From contig NZ_JBAJII010000001.1 of assembly GCF_036867195.1 (NCBI RefSeq), positions 1,488,001 through 1,552,000 on the forward strand: a stretch of 64,000 nt of DNA. The letters run 5' to 3'. The position numbers and the translations under genes were made by a program. Numbering within the stretch: the stretch's first letter is position 1; every line of letters begins with the position of its first letter. This document shows, piece after piece, positions 21,840 through 29,830 of this stretch. Origin of the DNA: Arthrobacter sp. Soc17.1.1.1 (GTDB lineage Bacteria > Actinomycetota > Actinomycetes > Actinomycetales > Micrococcaceae). Under the pieces are notes generated by a model that was not told where the DNA came from, searched no databases, and worked only from the letters and a program-made list of their open reading frames with translations.

Positions 21840-22868
21840 TTAGCCGAGCAGCTCGGGCGCCACGAGCAGCGCCGGCGGCACCACCAGGAGCATGCCCGCG
21901 GTGGACAGGGCCAGGCCCTGCTGGAAGCGGCTGAGCGGCGGCAGGGGAGTGAGCAGGCGGCGTAGCCGGTGCGCCGTGGACCGTGCGTCCCCGGTCCCAC
22001 CCGTCACGTCGGCCGCGCCGGTCGTCCCGGGCGGGCCCTGATCGGTTCGGGACCCGGCACCGGGACCGGTGAGGGGGTCGGCGAGCGGATCGTCGAGCTC
22101 GTCCCGTGAGGGCGGCAGCGCCCCGGAGCCGACGATCGCGATGGCCCGCACGAGCGTGGGCTCGTCCACGTGGCGCAGCGCCTCGTCGTCGGCCAGCATC
22201 TCGATCAGTTCGCTCACGGCGCGCTGCGCGAGCTGCGAGGTGGGGAGCCACGGCAGGGCCGCACGCCAGGCGGCGAAGGCCCACAGCAGCAGGTGGTGGC
22301 GCTGGTGCAGGTGCGCGTTCTCGTGGGTCAGGACCGCGTCGAGTTCGGCGCGGCTGAGGAGGTCCATGAGGCCGTCCGACATCACCGTCACGGAGCGGGC
22401 GCCGCCCGGGAGGCAGTAGGCCACGGGCGCGGGATGGCTGATCACGAGCGTGGCGGGCTGGTCGGCGGCAGGGGAGCTCAGCAGGTTGAGCATGTCCCGG
22501 TGGCGCCGGCGCTGCCGGCGGATGCGGACGAAGGTCAGCGCCAGGGTGAAGAGGAGGTGTGCGAACAGCAGGGTCGCGGCACTGATCGCGAAGACGTGGA
22601 TCACGCCGAGCGTCGCCGCGGAGTCGTCATCGACCAGGATGCGGAAGAACCCGACCGACGCCGAGACGAGGTTGTCGCCGAGCGGCTCGAGACCCCAGAC
22701 GAGCATCGCGCCGATCATGGACAGCCCTCCGGCGAGGGCGATCGACTGCCAGAGCACCATGGCCGTGAAGGGTGCGCGGGCGGGCCAGGAGGCCCGGGAG
22801 AGCGCGATCGGAGCGGGCCACGCGAGGATGATCGCGAGAGCCGCGAGCAGGTAGGAGGCCCAGAACAC
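21840..22868 (-). CDS. M56 family membrane metallopeptidase (BlaR1-like, no sensor domain)
   Basis: This 342-residue integral membrane protein has four predicted membrane helices (two near the N terminus, one near residues 90-115, one at the C-terminal end). A cytosolic zinc-protease domain carries the HEXXH motif as HENAH, in VLTHENAHLHQRHH. The family cleaves BlaI-type repressors. At 342 residues it lacks the extracellular penicillin-binding domain of classical BlaR1, so its signal need not be a beta-lactam. It starts with GTG 7 nt after the blaI stop codon and is certainly co-transcribed with blaI. Divergent neighbours are the cytochrome bd genes. Confidence 0.88.
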   Translation of the reverse strand: MFWASYLLAALAIILAWPAPIALSRASWPARAPFTAMVLWQSIALAGGLSMIGAMLVWGLEPLGDNLVSASVGFFRILVDDDSAATLGVIHVFAISAATLLFAHLLFTLALTFVRIRRQRRRHRDMLNLLSSPAADQPATLVISHPAPVAYCLPGGARSVTVMSDGLMDLLSRAELDAVLTHENAHLHQRHHLLLWAFAAWRAALPWLPTSQLAQRAVSELIEMLADDEALRHVDEPTLVRAIAIVGSGALPPSRDELDDPLADPLTGPGAGSRTDQGPPGTTGAADVTGGTGDARSTAHRLRRLLTPLPPLSRFQQGLALSTAGMLLVVPPALLVAPELLG

Positions 22869-22875
22869 CGAAGGG

Positions 22876-23244
22876 TCAGCTGCCGCCGAGCAGCTTGCGG
22901 AGGGTCTCGGCCTCGGCCTCGGAGACGCTGCCGATGAAGCGTGCGAGGACGGCTTCGCGGTCCGGCGCCGTCACGAGCACCTCGTGCATGAGCTCCGCGG
23001 TGTGGTCCTCACGGCTCGTCACGGACCGGTACCGGTGCGGGCGGCTGTCGCGCTCCCGCTCCACGAGGCCCTTCTTCTCGAGCCGGGACAGCACCGTCAG
23101 GACCGTCGTGACGGCGAGTTCGCGTCCCACCTGCCCCGTCGGTGCCTCGGCGATCGCGTCCCTGAGTGCATTCGCGTGCATCGCCTCCGGTGTCGCCCAC
23201 AGCAGGTCCATCACCGTGCGTTCGAGGTCTCCGAGCGTTGCCAT
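22876..23244 (-). CDS. BlaI/MecI/CopY family transcriptional repressor
   Basis: This 122-residue winged-helix repressor has an N-terminal DNA-binding domain (LGDLERTVMDLLW... TVLTVLSRLEKKGLVERERD) and a C-terminal helical dimerisation region (LARFIGSVSEAEAETLRKLL). In this family the partner M56 protease inactivates the repressor. The ATG has the ribosome-binding site GAAGGAAGAAC. Three CTAC-N5-GTAG palindromes lie 107-181 nt upstream, between this gene and cydA. These are the obvious candidate operators, so the protein probably regulates itself and the oxidase operon. Confidence 0.92.
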   Translation of the reverse strand: MATLGDLERTVMDLLWATPEAMHANALRDAIAEAPTGQVGRELAVTTVLTVLSRLEKKGLVERERDSRPHRYRSVTSREDHTAELMHEVLVTAPDREAVLARFIGSVSEAEAETLRKLLGGS

Positions 23245-23350
23245 GTTCTTCCTTCGATCAGTGCAGGACCGGATCCCGCCTGGGCTCCGGTCCGCTCCCA
23301 GGAGGGAGCGATGAGGCGTGGTGCATCTAACCTACCGCGTCGGCCCGCAC

Positions 23351-23371
23351 ATTTCTACTCCACGTAGAAAT
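23351..23371. promoter_or_regulatory. BlaI-type operator 1
   Basis: A perfect palindrome with 8-bp arms, ATTTCTAC-TCCAC-GTAGAAAT. The CTAC/GTAG half-sites resemble those bound by the BlaI/MecI family, though the 5-nt centre is specific to this array. Confidence 0.75.
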
Positions 23372-23384
23372 ACGTGGACATTTG

Positions 23385-23401
23385 TTCTACGATATGTAGA
23401 A
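23385..23401. promoter_or_regulatory. BlaI-type operator 2
   Basis: TTCTAC-GATAT-GTAGAA has 6-bp arms and the same 5-nt centre. Its centre is 32 bp from operator 1 (about three helical turns). The internal TACGAT could be a -10 box for cydA, which would put the operator over the promoter. Confidence 0.75.
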
Positions 23402-23407
23402 GAACTT

Positions 23408-23426
23408 CTTCTACAGCTTGTAGAAG
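23408..23426. promoter_or_regulatory. BlaI-type operator 3
   Basis: CTTCTAC-AGCTT-GTAGAAG has 7-bp arms and a 5-nt centre. It lies 24 bp from operator 2 and 40 bp before the cydA start codon. Confidence 0.75.
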
Positions 23427-23465
23427 TTCCGCGTCGCCGGCGTACGGCACTGCCGAAAGGGTCCG

Positions 23466-25037
23466 ATGGAAGCCTTGGAGATTGCCCGCTGGCAATTCGG
23501 GATCACGACCGTCTACCACTTCCTCATGGTCCCGCTGACCATCGGGCTCGGTCTCCTGGTCGCGACGATGCAGACCATGTGGCACCGCACGGGCAAGGAG
23601 CACTACCTCAGGATGACGAAGTTCTGGGGGAAGCTCTTCCTCATCAACTTCATCATGGGCGTGGCCACCGGCCTCGTGCAGGAGTTCCAGTTCGGCATGG
23701 CGTGGAGCGAGTACAGCCGCTTCGTGGGGGACGTCTTCGGGGCGCCGCTGGCGATGGAGGCGCTCCTCGCCTTCTTCGTCGAATCGACCTTCCTCGGCCT
23801 CTGGATCTTCGGCTGGGACCGCCTGCCCCGGCTGGTCCACCTGCTGAGCCTCTGGGCCGCCGTCCTGGCCTCCGTCTTCTCCGCCTACTTCATCCTCGTG
23901 GCCAACTCCTGGATGCAGCACCCCGTGGGCGTCGAGATGGTCGACGGCAGGCCCGTGATGGTCGACGCGTGGGCCGTCTTCACCAACAACACCGCCCTCG
24001 TCGCCTTCCCGCACACGCTCTTCGGAGCCCTCGCGGTGGCCGGGGCCTTCCTGCTCGGGATCAGCTGGTACCACCTGTGGAAGCGGCGCCACGACGGGCT
24101 CGACACCCTCACCGCGGACGGCACCCTCACCGCCGGCGACGGCGGCGGTGCCCGCGACGCCGTCGACCACCGGGTGTGGCTGCGCTCCGCGCGGGCGGGC
24201 GCCGTCGTCGCCATGATCGCGTTCGCCGGGACCGGTATCACCGGGGACCTGCAGGGCAAGCTCATGTTCGACCAGCAGCCCATGAAGATGGCCGCCGCGG
24301 AAGCCGCCTGCCATGACGGCACCGGCTTCTCGATCCTCTCCGTCGGCAACCTGGGGGCGCAGAGCTGCGATGACATCACGGCCGTCATCGAGGTGCCCGG
24401 CGTGCTCTCGTTCCTCGCCAACGGCGACTTCACCACCGAGGTCAAGGGCGTCAACACCCTCCTGCCCGAGTACCAGGAGAAGTACGGCACCACGCTGCCT
24501 GACGATCCCATGTACGGCGAGCGCGCGGGCACCGAGATCGACTACCTGCCCGTCATGGAGGTCACCTACTGGGGCTTCCGCATCATGATCGGCTTCGGCG
24601 CGATCGCTGCCGCCGCCGCGGCGGCCGCCCTGTGGGTCCTCCGCAGGGGCACCGTGCCGCAGTCCCGCTGGCTCATGCGCCTCGCGGTGTTCGGCATCCT
24701 CGCCCCGTTCGGGGCCAACGCCGCCGGCTGGATCTTCACGGAGATGGGGCGGCAGCCGTTCGTCGTCGCGCCCAACCCCGATCTCTCGGGTATCGACAGC
24801 GTGTTCATGTTCACCGCCGCGGCCGTCTCACCGGGCGTCACCGTCGCCGAGCTGGTCGCCTCGCTCGTCGCCCTGACCACCGTGTACGCCGTCCTGCTCG
24901 TGGTCGAGGTGAGGCTGCTGTTCACCTACGTGCGCGGCGGTACCGCCTCCGCCATGCCCGAGCTGGCGCACTCCGACGACGCGCCGGGCGCCACCGGCGG
25001 GAAGGACGACGGCGATGTCCTCGCCTTCGCCTACTGA
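23466..25037 (+). CDS. cydA: Cytochrome bd oxidase subunit I
   Basis: This 523-residue membrane protein carries the haems of cytochrome bd, a high-affinity quinol oxidase. The haem-ligand histidine near the N terminus is H18 (ARWQFGITTVYH). Conserved stretches include FFVESTFLGLWIFGW, SWMQHPVGVEM and FPHTLFGALAVAG. About nine membrane helices are present and the quinol-binding loop looks like the short type. The ATG follows GAAAGGG. It heads a cydA-cydB-cydDC operon divergent from the BlaI/M56 pair. Confidence 0.96.
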   Translation: MEALEIARWQFGITTVYHFLMVPLTIGLGLLVATMQTMWHRTGKEHYLRMTKFWGKLFLINFIMGVATGLVQEFQFGMAWSEYSRFVGDVFGAPLAMEALLAFFVESTFLGLWIFGWDRLPRLVHLLSLWAAVLASVFSAYFILVANSWMQHPVGVEMVDGRPVMVDAWAVFTNNTALVAFPHTLFGALAVAGAFLLGISWYHLWKRRHDGLDTLTADGTLTAGDGGGARDAVDHRVWLRSARAGAVVAMIAFAGTGITGDLQGKLMFDQQPMKMAAAEAACHDGTGFSILSVGNLGAQSCDDITAVIEVPGVLSFLANGDFTTEVKGVNTLLPEYQEKYGTTLPDDPMYGERAGTEIDYLPVMEVTYWGFRIMIGFGAIAAAAAAAALWVLRRGTVPQSRWLMRLAVFGILAPFGANAAGWIFTEMGRQPFVVAPNPDLSGIDSVFMFTAAAVSPGVTVAELVASLVALTTVYAVLLVVEVRLLFTYVRGGTASAMPELAHSDDAPGATGGKDDGDVLAFAY

Positions 25038-25115: not shown

Positions 25116-26138
25116 ATGACCGAGGCACTGCCCACCCTCTGGTTCGTCCTGATCGCCGTGCTCTGGTCCGGCTACCTGTTCCTCGAGGGATTCGACCTCG
25201 GGGTCGGCATGCTCATGAAGCTCATGGCCCGCAACGACACGCAGCGGCGCGTGCTGCTCAACACGGTCGGCCCCGTCTGGGACGGCAACGAGGTGTGGCT
25301 GATCACCGCCGTCGGGGCGACGTTCGCCGCCTTCCCGTCCTGGTACGCCTCGCTGCTGTCGGCGCTCTACCTGCCCTTCCTCTGCGTGCTGCTCGGCCTG
25401 ATCTTCCGGGCCGTGGCCTTCGAGTGGCGCGGCAAGCGGGACAGCGACGCGTGGCGCGGCCGCTGGGACTGGGCGATCGCCGTCGGCTCCTTCACCGCCG
25501 CGGCCGGGATCGGCGCCGCCCTGGCGCTGACGACGACGGGCCTGCCGCTCGACGCGAACGGCAACCGGGTGGGCGGCGCCTTCGCCTGGGCCACCGCACC
25601 GGCCCTCCTCGGGGCCGCCGCCGTCGTCCTGTTCTGCCTCGTCCATGCGGCCGCGTTCGTCGCGCTCAAGACCGAGGGCGGCGTGCGGGGCCAGGCCGAA
25701 CGCCTGTTCCGCCGGCTCCTGCCCGTCGCGCTGCTCCCGTTCCTGGGCTGGGCCCTGATCGTCCAGCTGGACACGGGGTCGGTGATCACCTGGCTGGCCG
25801 TGGTGCTCGCCGTCGCGGCCGTCCTCGCCGCCCACCGCTGCTCGATCGTCGGACGCGACGGGCGGGCCTTCGCGGCGCTGGGCGTCGGGATGCTCGCACT
25901 CGTCGGATCGATCTTCGGTGCCGTGTTCCCGGTCGTGCTGCCCTCGACCCTGGATGCGGCGTTCGACCTGACGGTGCAGAACGCCTCGTCATCGCCCTAC
26001 ACGCTCGGGCTGATGAGCATCGTGGCCTGCTTCGGGCTGCCGCTCGTCCTCGCCTACCAGGCCTGGACGTACTGGGTCTTCCGCCGGCGCGTGTCGGAGG
26101 AGAGCATCCCCGCGGCGCATGCCGTGGCGGCGCTGTGA
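25116..26138 (+). CDS. cydB: Cytochrome bd oxidase subunit II
   Basis: This 340-residue membrane protein has eight to nine hydrophobic helices. The N-terminal motif GYLFLEGFDLGVGML and the region GPVWDGNEVWLIT are diagnostic of CydB. The ATG at 25116 follows GGAAGGA. It lies 78 nt after cydA. Its stop codon overlaps the GTG of cydDC by 4 nt, indicating translational coupling. Confidence 0.95.
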   Translation: MTEALPTLWFVLIAVLWSGYLFLEGFDLGVGMLMKLMARNDTQRRVLLNTVGPVWDGNEVWLITAVGATFAAFPSWYASLLSALYLPFLCVLLGLIFRAVAFEWRGKRDSDAWRGRWDWAIAVGSFTAAAGIGAALALTTTGLPLDANGNRVGGAFAWATAPALLGAAAVVLFCLVHAAAFVALKTEGGVRGQAERLFRRLLPVALLPFLGWALIVQLDTGSVITWLAVVLAVAAVLAAHRCSIVGRDGRAFAALGVGMLALVGSIFGAVFPVVLPSTLDAAFDLTVQNASSSPYTLGLMSIVACFGLPLVLAYQAWTYWVFRRRVSEESIPAAHAVAAL

Positions 26139-29100
26139 GCACCACCCCAGCGGCCGGCCCCGCAGCCCGGCGCGGACCCCTGGCCGTCCTGGCGGCCGGC
26201 GGACCGGTCGGCGCGGGCCCGGCCGTGTACCTCCTCGGCGTGCTCGCCGCCGCCCGCGCCGCGGGACTGGTCCTCATGGCCCAGGCGCTCGCACTCGGCA
26301 TCGCGTCCCTCGCCGCCGGCGCGCCGGATGTCCGTGCTGTCCTCGTGCAGGGGGTGCTCGGGGCAGCGCTGCGCACCCTCGCGGCCTGGGGCCAGGACGC
26401 CACCGCCGCCCGCCTGGCCCTCGGCGCCAAGGAGGGGATGCGCGAGGCCGCCCTGCTGCGCGTGCTCGACGACGGCGGCACCACCCGCGCCGCCACCCCC
26501 GGCGGCGGCCAGGGCTCCCTCGCGGTGTTGCTGACCCGCGGTCTCGACGGACTCGACAAGTACTACACGCAGTACCTGCCCGCCCTCATCACCTGCGCCG
26601 TGGTGCCCCTGCTCATCGGCGCACGGATACTCCTCGCGGACTGGGTCAGCGCCCTCATCATCGTGCTCACGGTGCCGCTGGTGCCCGTCTTCATGGCGCT
26701 CATCGGCCTCCACACGCAGGAGCGCACCCGGCAGGCCGCCGTCGCACTGGGCCGCCTGTCCGACCACCTGCTCGAGCTCGCGCGGGGGCTCCCGGTCCTC
26801 GTGGGCCTCGGCCGTGCCGCGGAGCAGACGCGCGCCCTCCGCGAGATCGCCGGCACCTACACCTCACGCACCATGACGACGCTCCGGACGGTCTTCCTCT
26901 CCTCCCTCGCCCTCGAACTCATCAGCACCATCTCCGTCGCCGTCGTCGCCGTATTCGCGGGGGTCCGCCTCATCCACGGCGACCTCGGGCTCGAGACGGC
27001 GCTGATCGCCCTGATCCTCGCGCCCGAGTGCTACGGGCCGCTCCGCGACGTCGGCGCCGCCCACCACGCCAGCGAGGACGGCCAGGAGGCCGGCGCCCGG
27101 GTCCGCGCTGTCATCGATGCCCCCGCGCCCGAGGGTGCCGCGGTGCGCGCCGCGTCGGACCCGGACTCCACGTCGGACTTCACGTCGGACTCGGCGTCGG
27201 ACTTCACGTCGGACTCGGCGTCGGACTCCGCGTCGGACCTCCCGTCTGCGCCTTCGACGTCGTCCACGCCGAGCACCGGGCACGTGGCCCCGGTCGAGGC
27301 ACCCGGCGTCATCCGGGTCGGGAAGCTCGGCGCCCGGTACGACGGCGTCCTCGAACCGGTGCTGGAGGACGTCTCCTTCGTCGTCGCGCCCGGTTCGGTG
27401 CTGGCCCTGCGGGGTCCGAGCGGATCGGGGAAGTCGACGCTCATGCGGGTCCTGGCCGGGGGAGCGGCGCTCCCCGTGGGCCTCCGGTCGGAGGGACGCA
27501 TCGAAGGCCTGCCCGAGGACGGCATCGCCTGGGTTCCCCAGCACCCCGAGCTCCTGATGGACACGGTGCGCGCCGAACTGGCCCTCTACGCGCGGTTGCC
27601 GGACGATGCCCCCGCCATCGAGGAGCAGCTCGCGGCCGTGGGGGCCGCGGATCTGGCGGACCGGCGGACGGGGGAGCTCAGCCCCGGCGAACTGCGGCGC
27701 GTCGCCGTCGCCCGTGCCCTCCTCCGGGCACAGGACCCCGCGGTCCGGCTCCTGCTCCTCGACGAGCCGACAGCCCACGTGGACGAGGAGGCCTCCCGTG
27801 CCATCCGCGGGGCCATCGCGGTCCGCCGGCCGGGACTGGCGGTCGTCCTGATCGCACACGACGACGAGACGGCCGCCCTGGCGACGGACGAGGTGCGCCT
27901 CGACGCCCGGCGCGACCTCGTTCCGAGCCGTGCGGTATCTGCCGCCCGGTCCGCCGTCGGCCACGGCCCCGAGGCCGGTGTCCGGTCGCCGGGCTCCGCC
28001 GGTGCTGCCCGGGCCGACACGTCCACCGTGTCCGCGGCGCCCGCCGCCGTCCCTGCCGTGCCCCGATCTCTGTCGCCCGCCGCCGTGTCGCCCGCCGGCA
28101 GCGCGCGCGATCACGCAACTGCCGTCGCCGACCCGGACGCGACGGCCCCGCCGCTCCGGGGCAGGACCTCGTGGTCCCGGTCCGCGCTCGACGTGCTCGC
28201 ACTCGTGCGCCCGTGGGACCGCCGTTTCCTCGCCGCTGCGGCGCTGGGGCTCGGTGCCTCGGTCTTCGCCGTCGCCCTCACCGCACTCAGCGGCTGGCTC
28301 ATCGTCCGCGCCGCCGAGCAGCCGCCGATCCTCTACCTCCTCACCGCCATCGTCGGTGTCCGGTTCTTCGGTATCGGCCGGTCCCTGCTCCGCTACGAGG
28401 AGCGGCTGTGGCTGCACCGCGCGGTGTTCCACCGGGCCGACGACACGCGCCTCCGCCTCTGGACGGGCCTGCTGCAGGCGGGGCGCTCGTGGCGCACGAT
28501 CGCCCGGGGTTCGGGCGGCATCGAACGGCTCGTGGGGGACATCGACGAGCTACGCGACCTCTCGGCGAGGGCGCTGCTGCCCTTCGTCACCTCGGTGCTC
28601 ACGGGCGTCGCGGCCCTGGTCACCACGGCCGTGCTGCATCCCGCGGTCCTCGGCTGGCAGGCCCTCGCGGTGGGTGCGGCCGTGGTCGTCGCGCCGATGG
28701 TGGCGGTCGCGCGTGAGCGGGCCGCCGGCGCCGCCGCCGTGCAGCTGCGCGCGGACGCCCTCGAACGCGTGACCGGCCTCGTCCGGGCGGCCCCCGATCT
28801 CCGCGTGAACGGCGCCCACCGTGCGGCGCTCGGGGTGACGCGGCGCCTGGACAGCAGGGCCGCGGCCGCCTCGCGACGGTCCGCCGCCGCGGCCGGAGCG
28901 GCGACGGCGGTGATCGTCGCCGCCAGCTGCGCGGCGTCGCTCGGCATCCTCGCCTCCGGCGGACGGCCGGCAGACATCACGGCGGTGCTGGTGCTGATGC
29001 AGCTCGCCCTGATCGAGCCCTTCGTCGCGGGCGCCTCGGCCGTGCAGACCTGGGGTGCGCTCTCCGCCGTCGTGCGACGCCTCCGGCCGAGGCTCGGGCC

Positions 29101-29830
29101 GCCGCAGGACGGGGACCCTGCCGGAGCCGGCGCAGGGAGCAGCCCCGCCGCGGTCCGACGGCTGGAGCTGGAGGATGCCGCCGTAGGGTACGAGCGCGGC
29201 CGGCCGGTGGTGACCGGCGTGGACCTGCACCTCGGAACGGGCCGCTGGACGGGTCTCACCGGACCGTCCGGCAGCGGGAAGTCCACCCTGATCGGTGCCC
29301 TGCTGGGGTTCCTGCCGCTCGAGCAGGGCAGGCTGCTCGTCGACGGCGTACCGCACCACGGCGGACCCGCACCGCGGATCGCCTGGTGTCCGCAGGAGAG
29401 CCACCTGTTCACCTCGAGCATCCGATCCAACCTGCAGCTCGCGCGGTCACCCGGCGATCCGGCCACGGACGACGAGCTCCAGCGGGTCCTGGGGGCCGTG
29501 GGCCTGACGGAGTTCGTGGCCGGCCTCGAGCACGGGCTGGACGCGCAGGCCGGACCGGGCGGCTCGCGCCTGTCCGGCGGGCAGCGGCAGCGGCTCGCCG
29601 TGGCCCGCGCCCTGCTGACGCGGTCCGGCGTCGTCCTCCTCGACGAGCCCACCGCGCACCTCGACGCCGACGGCGCCCGCTCGCTGCTGGAGGATCTGCG
29701 CCGCGGGCTGCCCGACACCGCGGTGCTCCTGGTGACGCACGACCCCGACGAGGCGGCACTGTGCGACCGGACGGTGACCCTGCCGGGCCCTGCCCCCGCA
29801 GCGCGGTCGGGAGGCGACCGGCGCGTGTGA
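26135..29830 (+). CDS. cydDC: Fused CydDC thiol-reductant ABC exporter
   Basis: This 1231-residue protein joins two complete ABC exporter halves (membrane domain plus ATPase), which other bacteria make as CydD and CydC. It exports cysteine/glutathione-type thiols and is needed for cytochrome bd assembly. Walker A motifs are GPSGSGKSTLM and GPSGSGKSTLI, and both Walker B regions contain LLDEPTAH. The first ATPase has the degenerate signature LSPGE, the second a canonical LSGGQ, so the sites may be unequal. A Ser/Asp-rich linker encoded by a 12-bp repeat precedes ATPase 1, and a ~90-residue Ala/Pro-rich linker joins the halves. Fusion is common in actinobacteria. It starts at GTG overlapping cydB. 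Confidence 0.93.
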   Translation: MSTTPAAGPAARRGPLAVLAAGGPVGAGPAVYLLGVLAAARAAGLVLMAQALALGIASLAAGAPDVRAVLVQGVLGAALRTLAAWGQDATAARLALGAKEGMREAALLRVLDDGGTTRAATPGGGQGSLAVLLTRGLDGLDKYYTQYLPALITCAVVPLLIGARILLADWVSALIIVLTVPLVPVFMALIGLHTQERTRQAAVALGRLSDHLLELARGLPVLVGLGRAAEQTRALREIAGTYTSRTMTTLRTVFLSSLALELISTISVAVVAVFAGVRLIHGDLGLETALIALILAPECYGPLRDVGAAHHASEDGQEAGARVRAVIDAPAPEGAAVRAASDPDSTSDFTSDSASDFTSDSASDSASDLPSAPSTSSTPSTGHVAPVEAPGVIRVGKLGARYDGVLEPVLEDVSFVVAPGSVLALRGPSGSGKSTLMRVLAGGAALPVGLRSEGRIEGLPEDGIAWVPQHPELLMDTVRAELALYARLPDDAPAIEEQLAAVGAADLADRRTGELSPGELRRVAVARALLRAQDPAVRLLLLDEPTAHVDEEASRAIRGAIAVRRPGLAVVLIAHDDETAALATDEVRLDARRDLVPSRAVSAARSAVGHGPEAGVRSPGSAGAARADTSTVSAAPAAVPAVPRSLSPAAVSPAGSARDHATAVADPDATAPPLRGRTSWSRSALDVLALVRPWDRRFLAAAALGLGASVFAVALTALSGWLIVRAAEQPPILYLLTAIVGVRFFGIGRSLLRYEERLWLHRAVFHRADDTRLRLWTGLLQAGRSWRTIARGSGGIERLVGDIDELRDLSARALLPFVTSVLTGVAALVTTAVLHPAVLGWQALAVGAAVVVAPMVAVARERAAGAAAVQLRADALERVTGLVRAAPDLRVNGAHRAALGVTRRLDSRAAAASRRSAAAAGAATAVIVAASCAASLGILASGGRPADITAVLVLMQLALIEPFVAGASAVQTWGALSAVVRRLRPRLGPPQDGDPAGAGAGSSPAAVRRLELEDAAVGYERGRPVVTGVDLHLGTGRWTGLTGPSGSGKSTLIGALLGFLPLEQGRLLVDGVPHHGGPAPRIAWCPQESHLFTSSIRSNLQLARSPGDPATDDELQRVLGAVGLTEFVAGLEHGLDAQAGPGGSRLSGGQRQRLAVARALLTRSGVVLLDEPTAHLDADGARSLLEDLRRGLPDTAVLLVTHDPDEAALCDRTVTLPGPAPAARSGGDRRV
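27166..27240 (+). repeat. 12-bp tandem repeats in cydDC
   Basis: About six degenerate units of the form TCGGACT(T/C)CACG / TCGGACTCGGCG encode (Ser-Asp-Phe/Ser-Thr/Ala) repeats between the first membrane domain and its ATPase. Confidence 0.85.

Follow-up and report, generated by a model that had tools for sequence, protein, structure and literature searches.

A 64,000-nucleotide stretch of the genome of Arthrobacter sp. Soc17.1.1.1 (contig NZ_JBAJII010000001.1, positions 1,488,001 to 1,552,000; hereafter the window) carries a gene for a BlaI/MecI-family repressor that stands back to back with a cytochrome bd operon, and the gap between the two holds three palindromes of a single build, TTCTAC-N5-GTAGAA. 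Most probably, BlaI represses a respiratory regulon through dyads of this kind, and a BlaR-like membrane protease encoded beside it, which lacks a sensor, relieves the repression. The array and its conservation, the same dyad at other promoters, and a link of the motif to the presence and clade of BlaI can be read from the sequences, whereas binding, repression, cleavage and the signal are inferred. The features of the window that matter here, in order of position, are as follows.

21840..22868, minus strand: BlaR-like membrane metalloprotease, M48/M56-type, 342 aa, without a C-terminal sensor (HENAH at residues 182-186, E223, conserved C152)
22876..23244, minus strand: blaI, BlaI/MecI-family winged-helix repressor, 122 aa (PF03965, 74.3 bits)
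23329..23334, minus strand: TAGGTT, a -10-like hexamer of blaI and putative promoter element, 16 bp from the outer edge of operator 1
23351..23371: operator 1, on the blaI side, arms ATTTCTAC-N5-GTAGAAAT (8 bp)
23385..23401: operator 2, TTCTAC-N5-GTAGAA (arms of 6 bp), a member of the cydA-side pair
23408..23426: operator 3, CTTCTACA-N3-TGTAGAAG (arms of 8 bp), the other member of the cydA-side pair, 24 bp from operator 2
23466..25037, plus strand: cydA, cytochrome bd subunit I (PF01654, 498 bits)
25116..26138, plus strand: cydB, cytochrome bd subunit II (PF02322, 326 bits)
26135..29830, plus strand: cydDC-type fused ABC exporter, 1231 aa in a single frame, overlapping the cydB stop

The intergenic gap (23245-23465) contains three exact dyads, with cores at 23353-23369, 23385-23401 and 23409-23425 and centres at 23361, 23393 and 23417, as a first-pass annotation of this DNA had reported. 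The arm lengths it gave (8, 6 and 7 bp) hold for the first two operators, but the arms of the third, CTTCTACA and TGTAGAAG, are 8 bp long. There is no other exact match in the 64 kb, and with up to three mismatches the window yields 11 matches, compared with a mean of 2.33 and a maximum of 6 in shuffled sequence. A chance origin of the dyads was rejected on these shuffles, on conservation in relatives and on same-genus counts against a control pattern. In an alignment of 81 gaps (window included), anchored at the blaI-side dyad, both the dyad arms and the position of the -10-like element are conserved, and operator 1 would cover the expected -35 position of the putative blaI promoter. The gap contains no Rex-like dyad (TTGTG-N6-CACAA) with up to two mismatches, in agreement with the earlier annotation, and no CRP-like dyad at the same tolerance; both Rex and CRP were rejected as its regulators for that reason. 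A 20-bp inverted repeat, TCCACGTA-GAAA-TACGTGGA, overlaps operator 1 at 23359-23378. It was rejected as an extra operator site, being absent from the five relatives shown alongside in the alignment.

Conservation was followed in the best 80 of at least 318 blaI places among genomes taken one per species, from Arthrobacter, Pseudarthrobacter, Sinomonas and other Micrococcaceae. In 72 of these 80 loci cydA is divergent from blaI across a gap of 154-321 bp, with three exact dyads in 65 gaps and two in the other seven, of which L034 and L101 carry a third with one mismatch. The 209 exact dyads of the 72 gaps enclose 86 distinct spacers, the arms being fixed and the spacers free to vary. Pair spacing was 24 bp in 54, 23 bp in 11 and 25 bp in 6 of 71 gaps (window included) that had been chosen as having two exact dyads 20-27 bp apart; the third, blaI-side dyad stays close to blaI, and its distance to the cydA-side pair varies. 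The first-pass annotation had proposed just such a comparison of the gap across relatives. Because every locus that keeps the gene order also keeps its dyads, refutation by non-conservation failed in the near relatives; the exception, genome G019, belongs to another family and is weighed below.

The dyad upstream of blaI itself is present in the window and in all 80 near relatives. In the eight loci without an adjacent cydA, blaI adjoins a relative (56-82% identity) of a GNAT gene that lies beyond cydDC in the window, and all eight keep one or two exact dyads by blaI. Two of these loci, L038 and L046, were matched, with equal dyads among the grounds, to the L156 and L164 loci of genomes G001 and G005. 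Since in G001 and G005 a cydA that has two dyads lies on a different contig (L184 and L185), cyd stands elsewhere in these genomes with dyads of its own, and a plain loss of cyd is unsupported for at least these two of the eight. A further 39 relative regions were picked among the matches listed, most of the blaI-cydA arrays and ctaE-qcrC gap sites already seen being left out. Five cydA genes in this set have no blaI within their 3.7-kb region and two exact dyads each, and three regions have blaI with a dyad and no cydA, two of these three being the L038 and L046 loci.

The dyad also marks other genes of the host. Seven exact sites occur in its genome, against none for the control pattern: the three of the blaI-cydA gap and one each before qcrC, chdC/hemQ (where the site sits between hemY and hemQ), a flavohemoglobin gene and a DsbA-like gene that adjoins ccdA and resB genes. 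Contig C2, 180 kb long and plasmid-like, holds the last two of these sites (L023 and L024), so that candidate targets extend to a second, plasmid-like contig. Another 14 sites have one mismatch, and five of them precede respiratory or tricarboxylic acid (TCA) cycle genes, namely ctaE, ctaB, sucC, a thioredoxin-ccdA set and an ABC ATPase gene upstream of ctaA, on the same strand and about 0.8 kb away, for which a divergent helix-turn-helix gene is an alternative target. The earlier annotation had written of the release of the alternative oxidase, and this proved too narrow, because the same dyads also precede genes for bcc-aa3, heme o, coproheme, cytochrome c maturation and flavohemoglobin. ATP synthase was rejected as a target here, since the atpI-atpB stretch examined (L026) has no site with up to one mismatch.

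Related genomes repeat the pattern. All 15 same-genus genomes, the host included, carry 5-11 exact sites each, 102 in total against 4 for the control pattern, and seven genomes of other families have none. In another draw of 18 same-genus genomes, again with the host, all 18 carry a dyad with one mismatch before ctaE as well as an exact dyad between ctaE and qcrC; eight genomes of other families with ctaE have no exact dyad in the stretches examined, and one of them has a one-mismatch site. The neighbours of the dyads in the 39 relative regions are hemY-hemQ (11), cydA (5), hmp (4), blaI (3), rhodopsin (3), VKOR (3, two with CtaG-CopD opposite), cytochrome c maturation (2), a YcnI-type operon (1), a gene with no known relative (1) and a small membrane protein (6).

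Across the order, the motif follows the regulator. BlaI was found at E <= 1e-5 in 68 of 159 genomes, and the motif in 29 of these 68 and in none of the 91 without BlaI, 71 of which were assumed to make up the remainder of that draw. When the BlaI match is held to E < 1e-30, 24 of 25 genomes have the motif, the exception being G019. Genome G088, of the same family as the host (L267, L320), has 15 exact dyads, the most in this count, and its blaI has no cydA match in the surrounding 5.9 kb.

At the level of the class, where 72 of 148 genomes have BlaI at E <= 1e-12, 49 further blaI loci were compared, 39 from outside the order and 10 from within it but without the motif. In 25 of them a cydA relative is found no more than 2.5 kb away (tblastn E <= 1e-5; the f36 relatives have only 26-28% identity), and in 24 it is divergent. 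With gaps read to at most 300 bp, 21 of these 24 hold the more general dyad T[TA]C[TG]AC-N5-GT[AC]G[AT]A, at 38 sites compared with a shuffle mean of 0.04 over all gaps, a count that is descriptive because the motif was written after these gaps had been seen. The general dyad was not found in class-level gaps with spacers of 2-4, 6, 7 or 9, and a spacer of 8 gave 8 sites, probably via overlapping half-sites.

A tree of BlaI (54 selected rows) needs a single change between TTC-type and TAC-type operators, with support of 99/94. The in-order families f14, f7 and f13 have the TAC type and f36, from outside the order, has the TTC type; the operator type therefore goes with the clade of BlaI and not with the species. 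BlaI residues that differ between the types include 49, 53, 56 and 70, presumed to lie in the recognition helix and wing, and E56 and H70 occur in 28 of 28 sequences of one type and 0 of 18 of the other. Because there is only one change on the tree, this link of residue and operator is an association and not repeated co-evolution.

BlaI passes the Pfam Penicillinase_R profile (74.3 bits, cut-off 22.6), and its best solved relative is 2g9w (E 1.5e-17), which we take to be the Mycobacterium tuberculosis BlaI, Rv1846c. Its neighbour had been described as an M56 protease with a HENAH zinc motif and no penicillin-binding sensor. The motif is indeed kept, at residues 182-186, in a multi-pass protein with four hydrophobic stretches that ends in one of them (318-342), and a Pfam search of the 342 aa found no extracellular penicillin-binding sensor domain; the family name is what did not hold. 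Because the protein passes the Pfam M48 cut-off (41.4 bits, cut-off 20.3) and fails that of Peptidase_M56 (20.6 bits, cut-off 31), it is called BlaR-like here, by neighbourhood, and not M56. Its motif residues are putative zinc ligands, and a sequence search gave no solved relatives up to E 1. A cysteine in an AYC-PG motif (C152), about 30 residues before HExxH, is shared by at least 97% of the 121 near proteases compared, a set that includes near-copies, and, by our count, by the proteases of 50 of the 53 loci that are more distant.

In the mechanism proposed, BlaI would be a dimeric repressor that binds TTCTAC-N5-GTAGAA dyads, of which cydA has two and the blaI promoter one, while promoters of genes for the bcc-aa3 chain, for the synthesis of heme, for cytochrome c maturation and for nitric oxide (NO) detoxification have one each. 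The resemblance to BlaI-type operators drawn by the first-pass annotation is borne out in how the dyads behave, being kept with gene order and tracking BlaI presence and clade, and repression is argued because they are positioned over likely promoter elements. The adjoining protease would pick up a respiratory or redox cue carried in the membrane and inactivate BlaI by cleavage, which is argued from the zinc motif and the adjacency to blaI; loss of BlaI would then release the regulon together with the blaI-protease unit itself. A bolder extension, to which we give some credence but less than even, is that BlaI and the sensor-less protease form an old respiratory-state switch of the Actinomycetes that keeps both terminal oxidases in step with functions in heme, cytochrome c, copper and NO, the mycobacterial beta-lactam response being a later or indirect use. 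In that scheme the protease may sense redox through C152, a role for this cysteine that is speculation.

Several observations count against a BlaI-governed respiratory regulon. In G019, blaI and cydA are divergent with no exact dyad, and 39 of the 68 BlaI-bearing genomes of the order have no exact motif; the cross-table of motif and BlaI (Fisher p 2.7e-13) ignores relatedness. Among the 49 further loci of the class, 24 have no cydA nearby, and three of the 24 divergent gaps (L271, L274 and L279) are without the general motif, each having a TTCTAC-N5-GTAGGA variant near blaI. The other nine of the 14 one-mismatch sites in the host do not precede respiratory or TCA genes: one lies before a plasmid MpaB-like gene, one is intergenic near uppS, and seven are inside frames judged coding, for some of them on base composition only. 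With up to two mismatches the motif (99 sites) is rarer in the host than the control (184); only the exact and few near sites are informative for that reason, and the loose motif, with no enrichment over the control, was dropped from the regulon search. To these may be added the six small membrane protein genes, whose function is not assigned, and the poor predicted structure of the protease (pLDDT 56.6).

Other explanations share much of this evidence. BlaI might read the dyads and repress while the protease is not the sensor, so that BlaI or a partner, such as a WhiB-type protein acting on blaI expression, does the sensing and the protease sets BlaI turnover or has another substrate. The protease is indeed without a recognisable sensor domain, and in M. 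tuberculosis the blaR-blaI genes are reported to be under redox-responsive control by WhiB4 (PMC5473688). However, a relative of the protease gene stands beside blaI in all 80 near loci and in 48 of the 49 further ones, with HExxH kept, and this adjacency together with the kept motif suggests that the protease acts on BlaI; a protease with no part in sensing is considered rather unlikely. The system could also be chiefly a switch for cell-envelope or beta-lactam stress that adjusts respiration as a side effect, as BlaI/BlaR kin respond to beta-lactams, and exposure of M. tuberculosis to beta-lactams raises both blaR-blaI and cydAB (PMC5473688). We find this improbable, given that the annotated dyad neighbours include no beta-lactamase or penicillin-binding protein gene (the genome itself was not searched for them) and are mostly concerned with respiration, heme, copper, thiol or NO.

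That the dyads belong to a different regulator, with blaI merely among its targets, seems very improbable. An operator that adjoins a regulator gene may serve another protein, and binding by BlaI is here a prediction. Yet all 29 motif-positive genomes of the 159 carry BlaI, no motif is seen in those members of families f1, f6 and f19 that lack BlaI in this draw, and the operator type tracks the clade of BlaI and not the order of the species.

Considering known systems, staphylococcal BlaI/MecI with BlaR1/MecR1 is likewise a pair of repressor and membrane metalloprotease. Its operators are dyads with TAC/GTA half-sites spaced by 4, whereas the pair described here has a spacing of 5, no penicillin-binding sensor and respiratory neighbours. 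Rex is a redox-linked repressor of cyd operons in actinobacteria, and redox-linked respiratory repression would be common to both systems, although the gap here has no Rex-like dyad. The CopY/TcrY copper repressors belong to the same winged-helix superfamily, but BlaI falls below the cut-off of their equivalog TIGR02698 (26.7 bits, cut-off 121.95), and copper genes make up just one group of the dyad neighbours.

The nearest precedent is M. tuberculosis BlaI-BlaR (Rv1846c-Rv1845c; Sala et al. 2009, through citing papers), which has in common a BlaI relative (2g9w), a sensor-less BlaR and a link to cytochrome bd. According to PMC5473688, citing Sala 2009, BlaI binds the cytochrome bd and ATP synthase promoters and mycobacterial BlaR is without a sensor; PMC12565901 reports, mostly by overexpression, that BlaI binds and represses Rv1303, co-transcribed with ATP synthase genes, and PMC5874750 names BlaI a regulator of the atp operon. 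Because BlaI is thus tied in print to cytochrome bd and ATP synthase, the respiratory use of the module that the first-pass annotation proposed finds support here but is not new in principle. What differs is the ATP synthase link, for which the atpI-atpB stretch examined here showed no counterpart site, the divergent arrangement of blaI-protease and cydA-cydB-cydDC around a shared operator array, and dyads before oxidase, heme, cytochrome c and NO genes, with copper-related genes in relatives. The literature searched yielded no account of the shared array, of the wide regulon or of the class-wide operator, and neither a blaI-cyd array nor a BlaI respiratory regulon outside mycobacteria was found described in titles and abstract openings of open-licence PubMed Central papers.

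The broader variant offered here treats the array as a single node in a larger regulon. BlaI control over an entire respiratory regulon, along with a related operator across the class, would point to a concrete class of signals for the sensor-less actinobacterial BlaR, and the operator code is offered together with regulator residues that change alongside it. If the reading is true, a textbook antibiotic-resistance module would have to be seen as a control on aerobic respiration, of which resistance is one offshoot.

Some smaller observations concern the genes that the dyads adjoin. In the window, cydA, cydB and the ABC-fusion exporter together have the composition of a cytochrome bd operon; by profile the exporter frame has ABC_tran, in two stretches, and ABC_membrane, and from its position we presume it to be cydDC. 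The small membrane proteins with an exact upstream dyad (L151, L158, L163, L173, L176 and L179) are about 112-124 aa long, and that of L151 has no Pfam or NCBIfam match. More distant BlaI/protease pairs of family f15 (L251-L254) carry this dyad close to other membrane genes, which by Pfam are PepSY_TM (L252) and FecCD (L251). Finally, in three relatives an exact dyad lies upstream of a bacteriorhodopsin-like gene (PF01036; L148, at 1823-2812, L166 and L181), and light-driven pumping may share the respiratory control.
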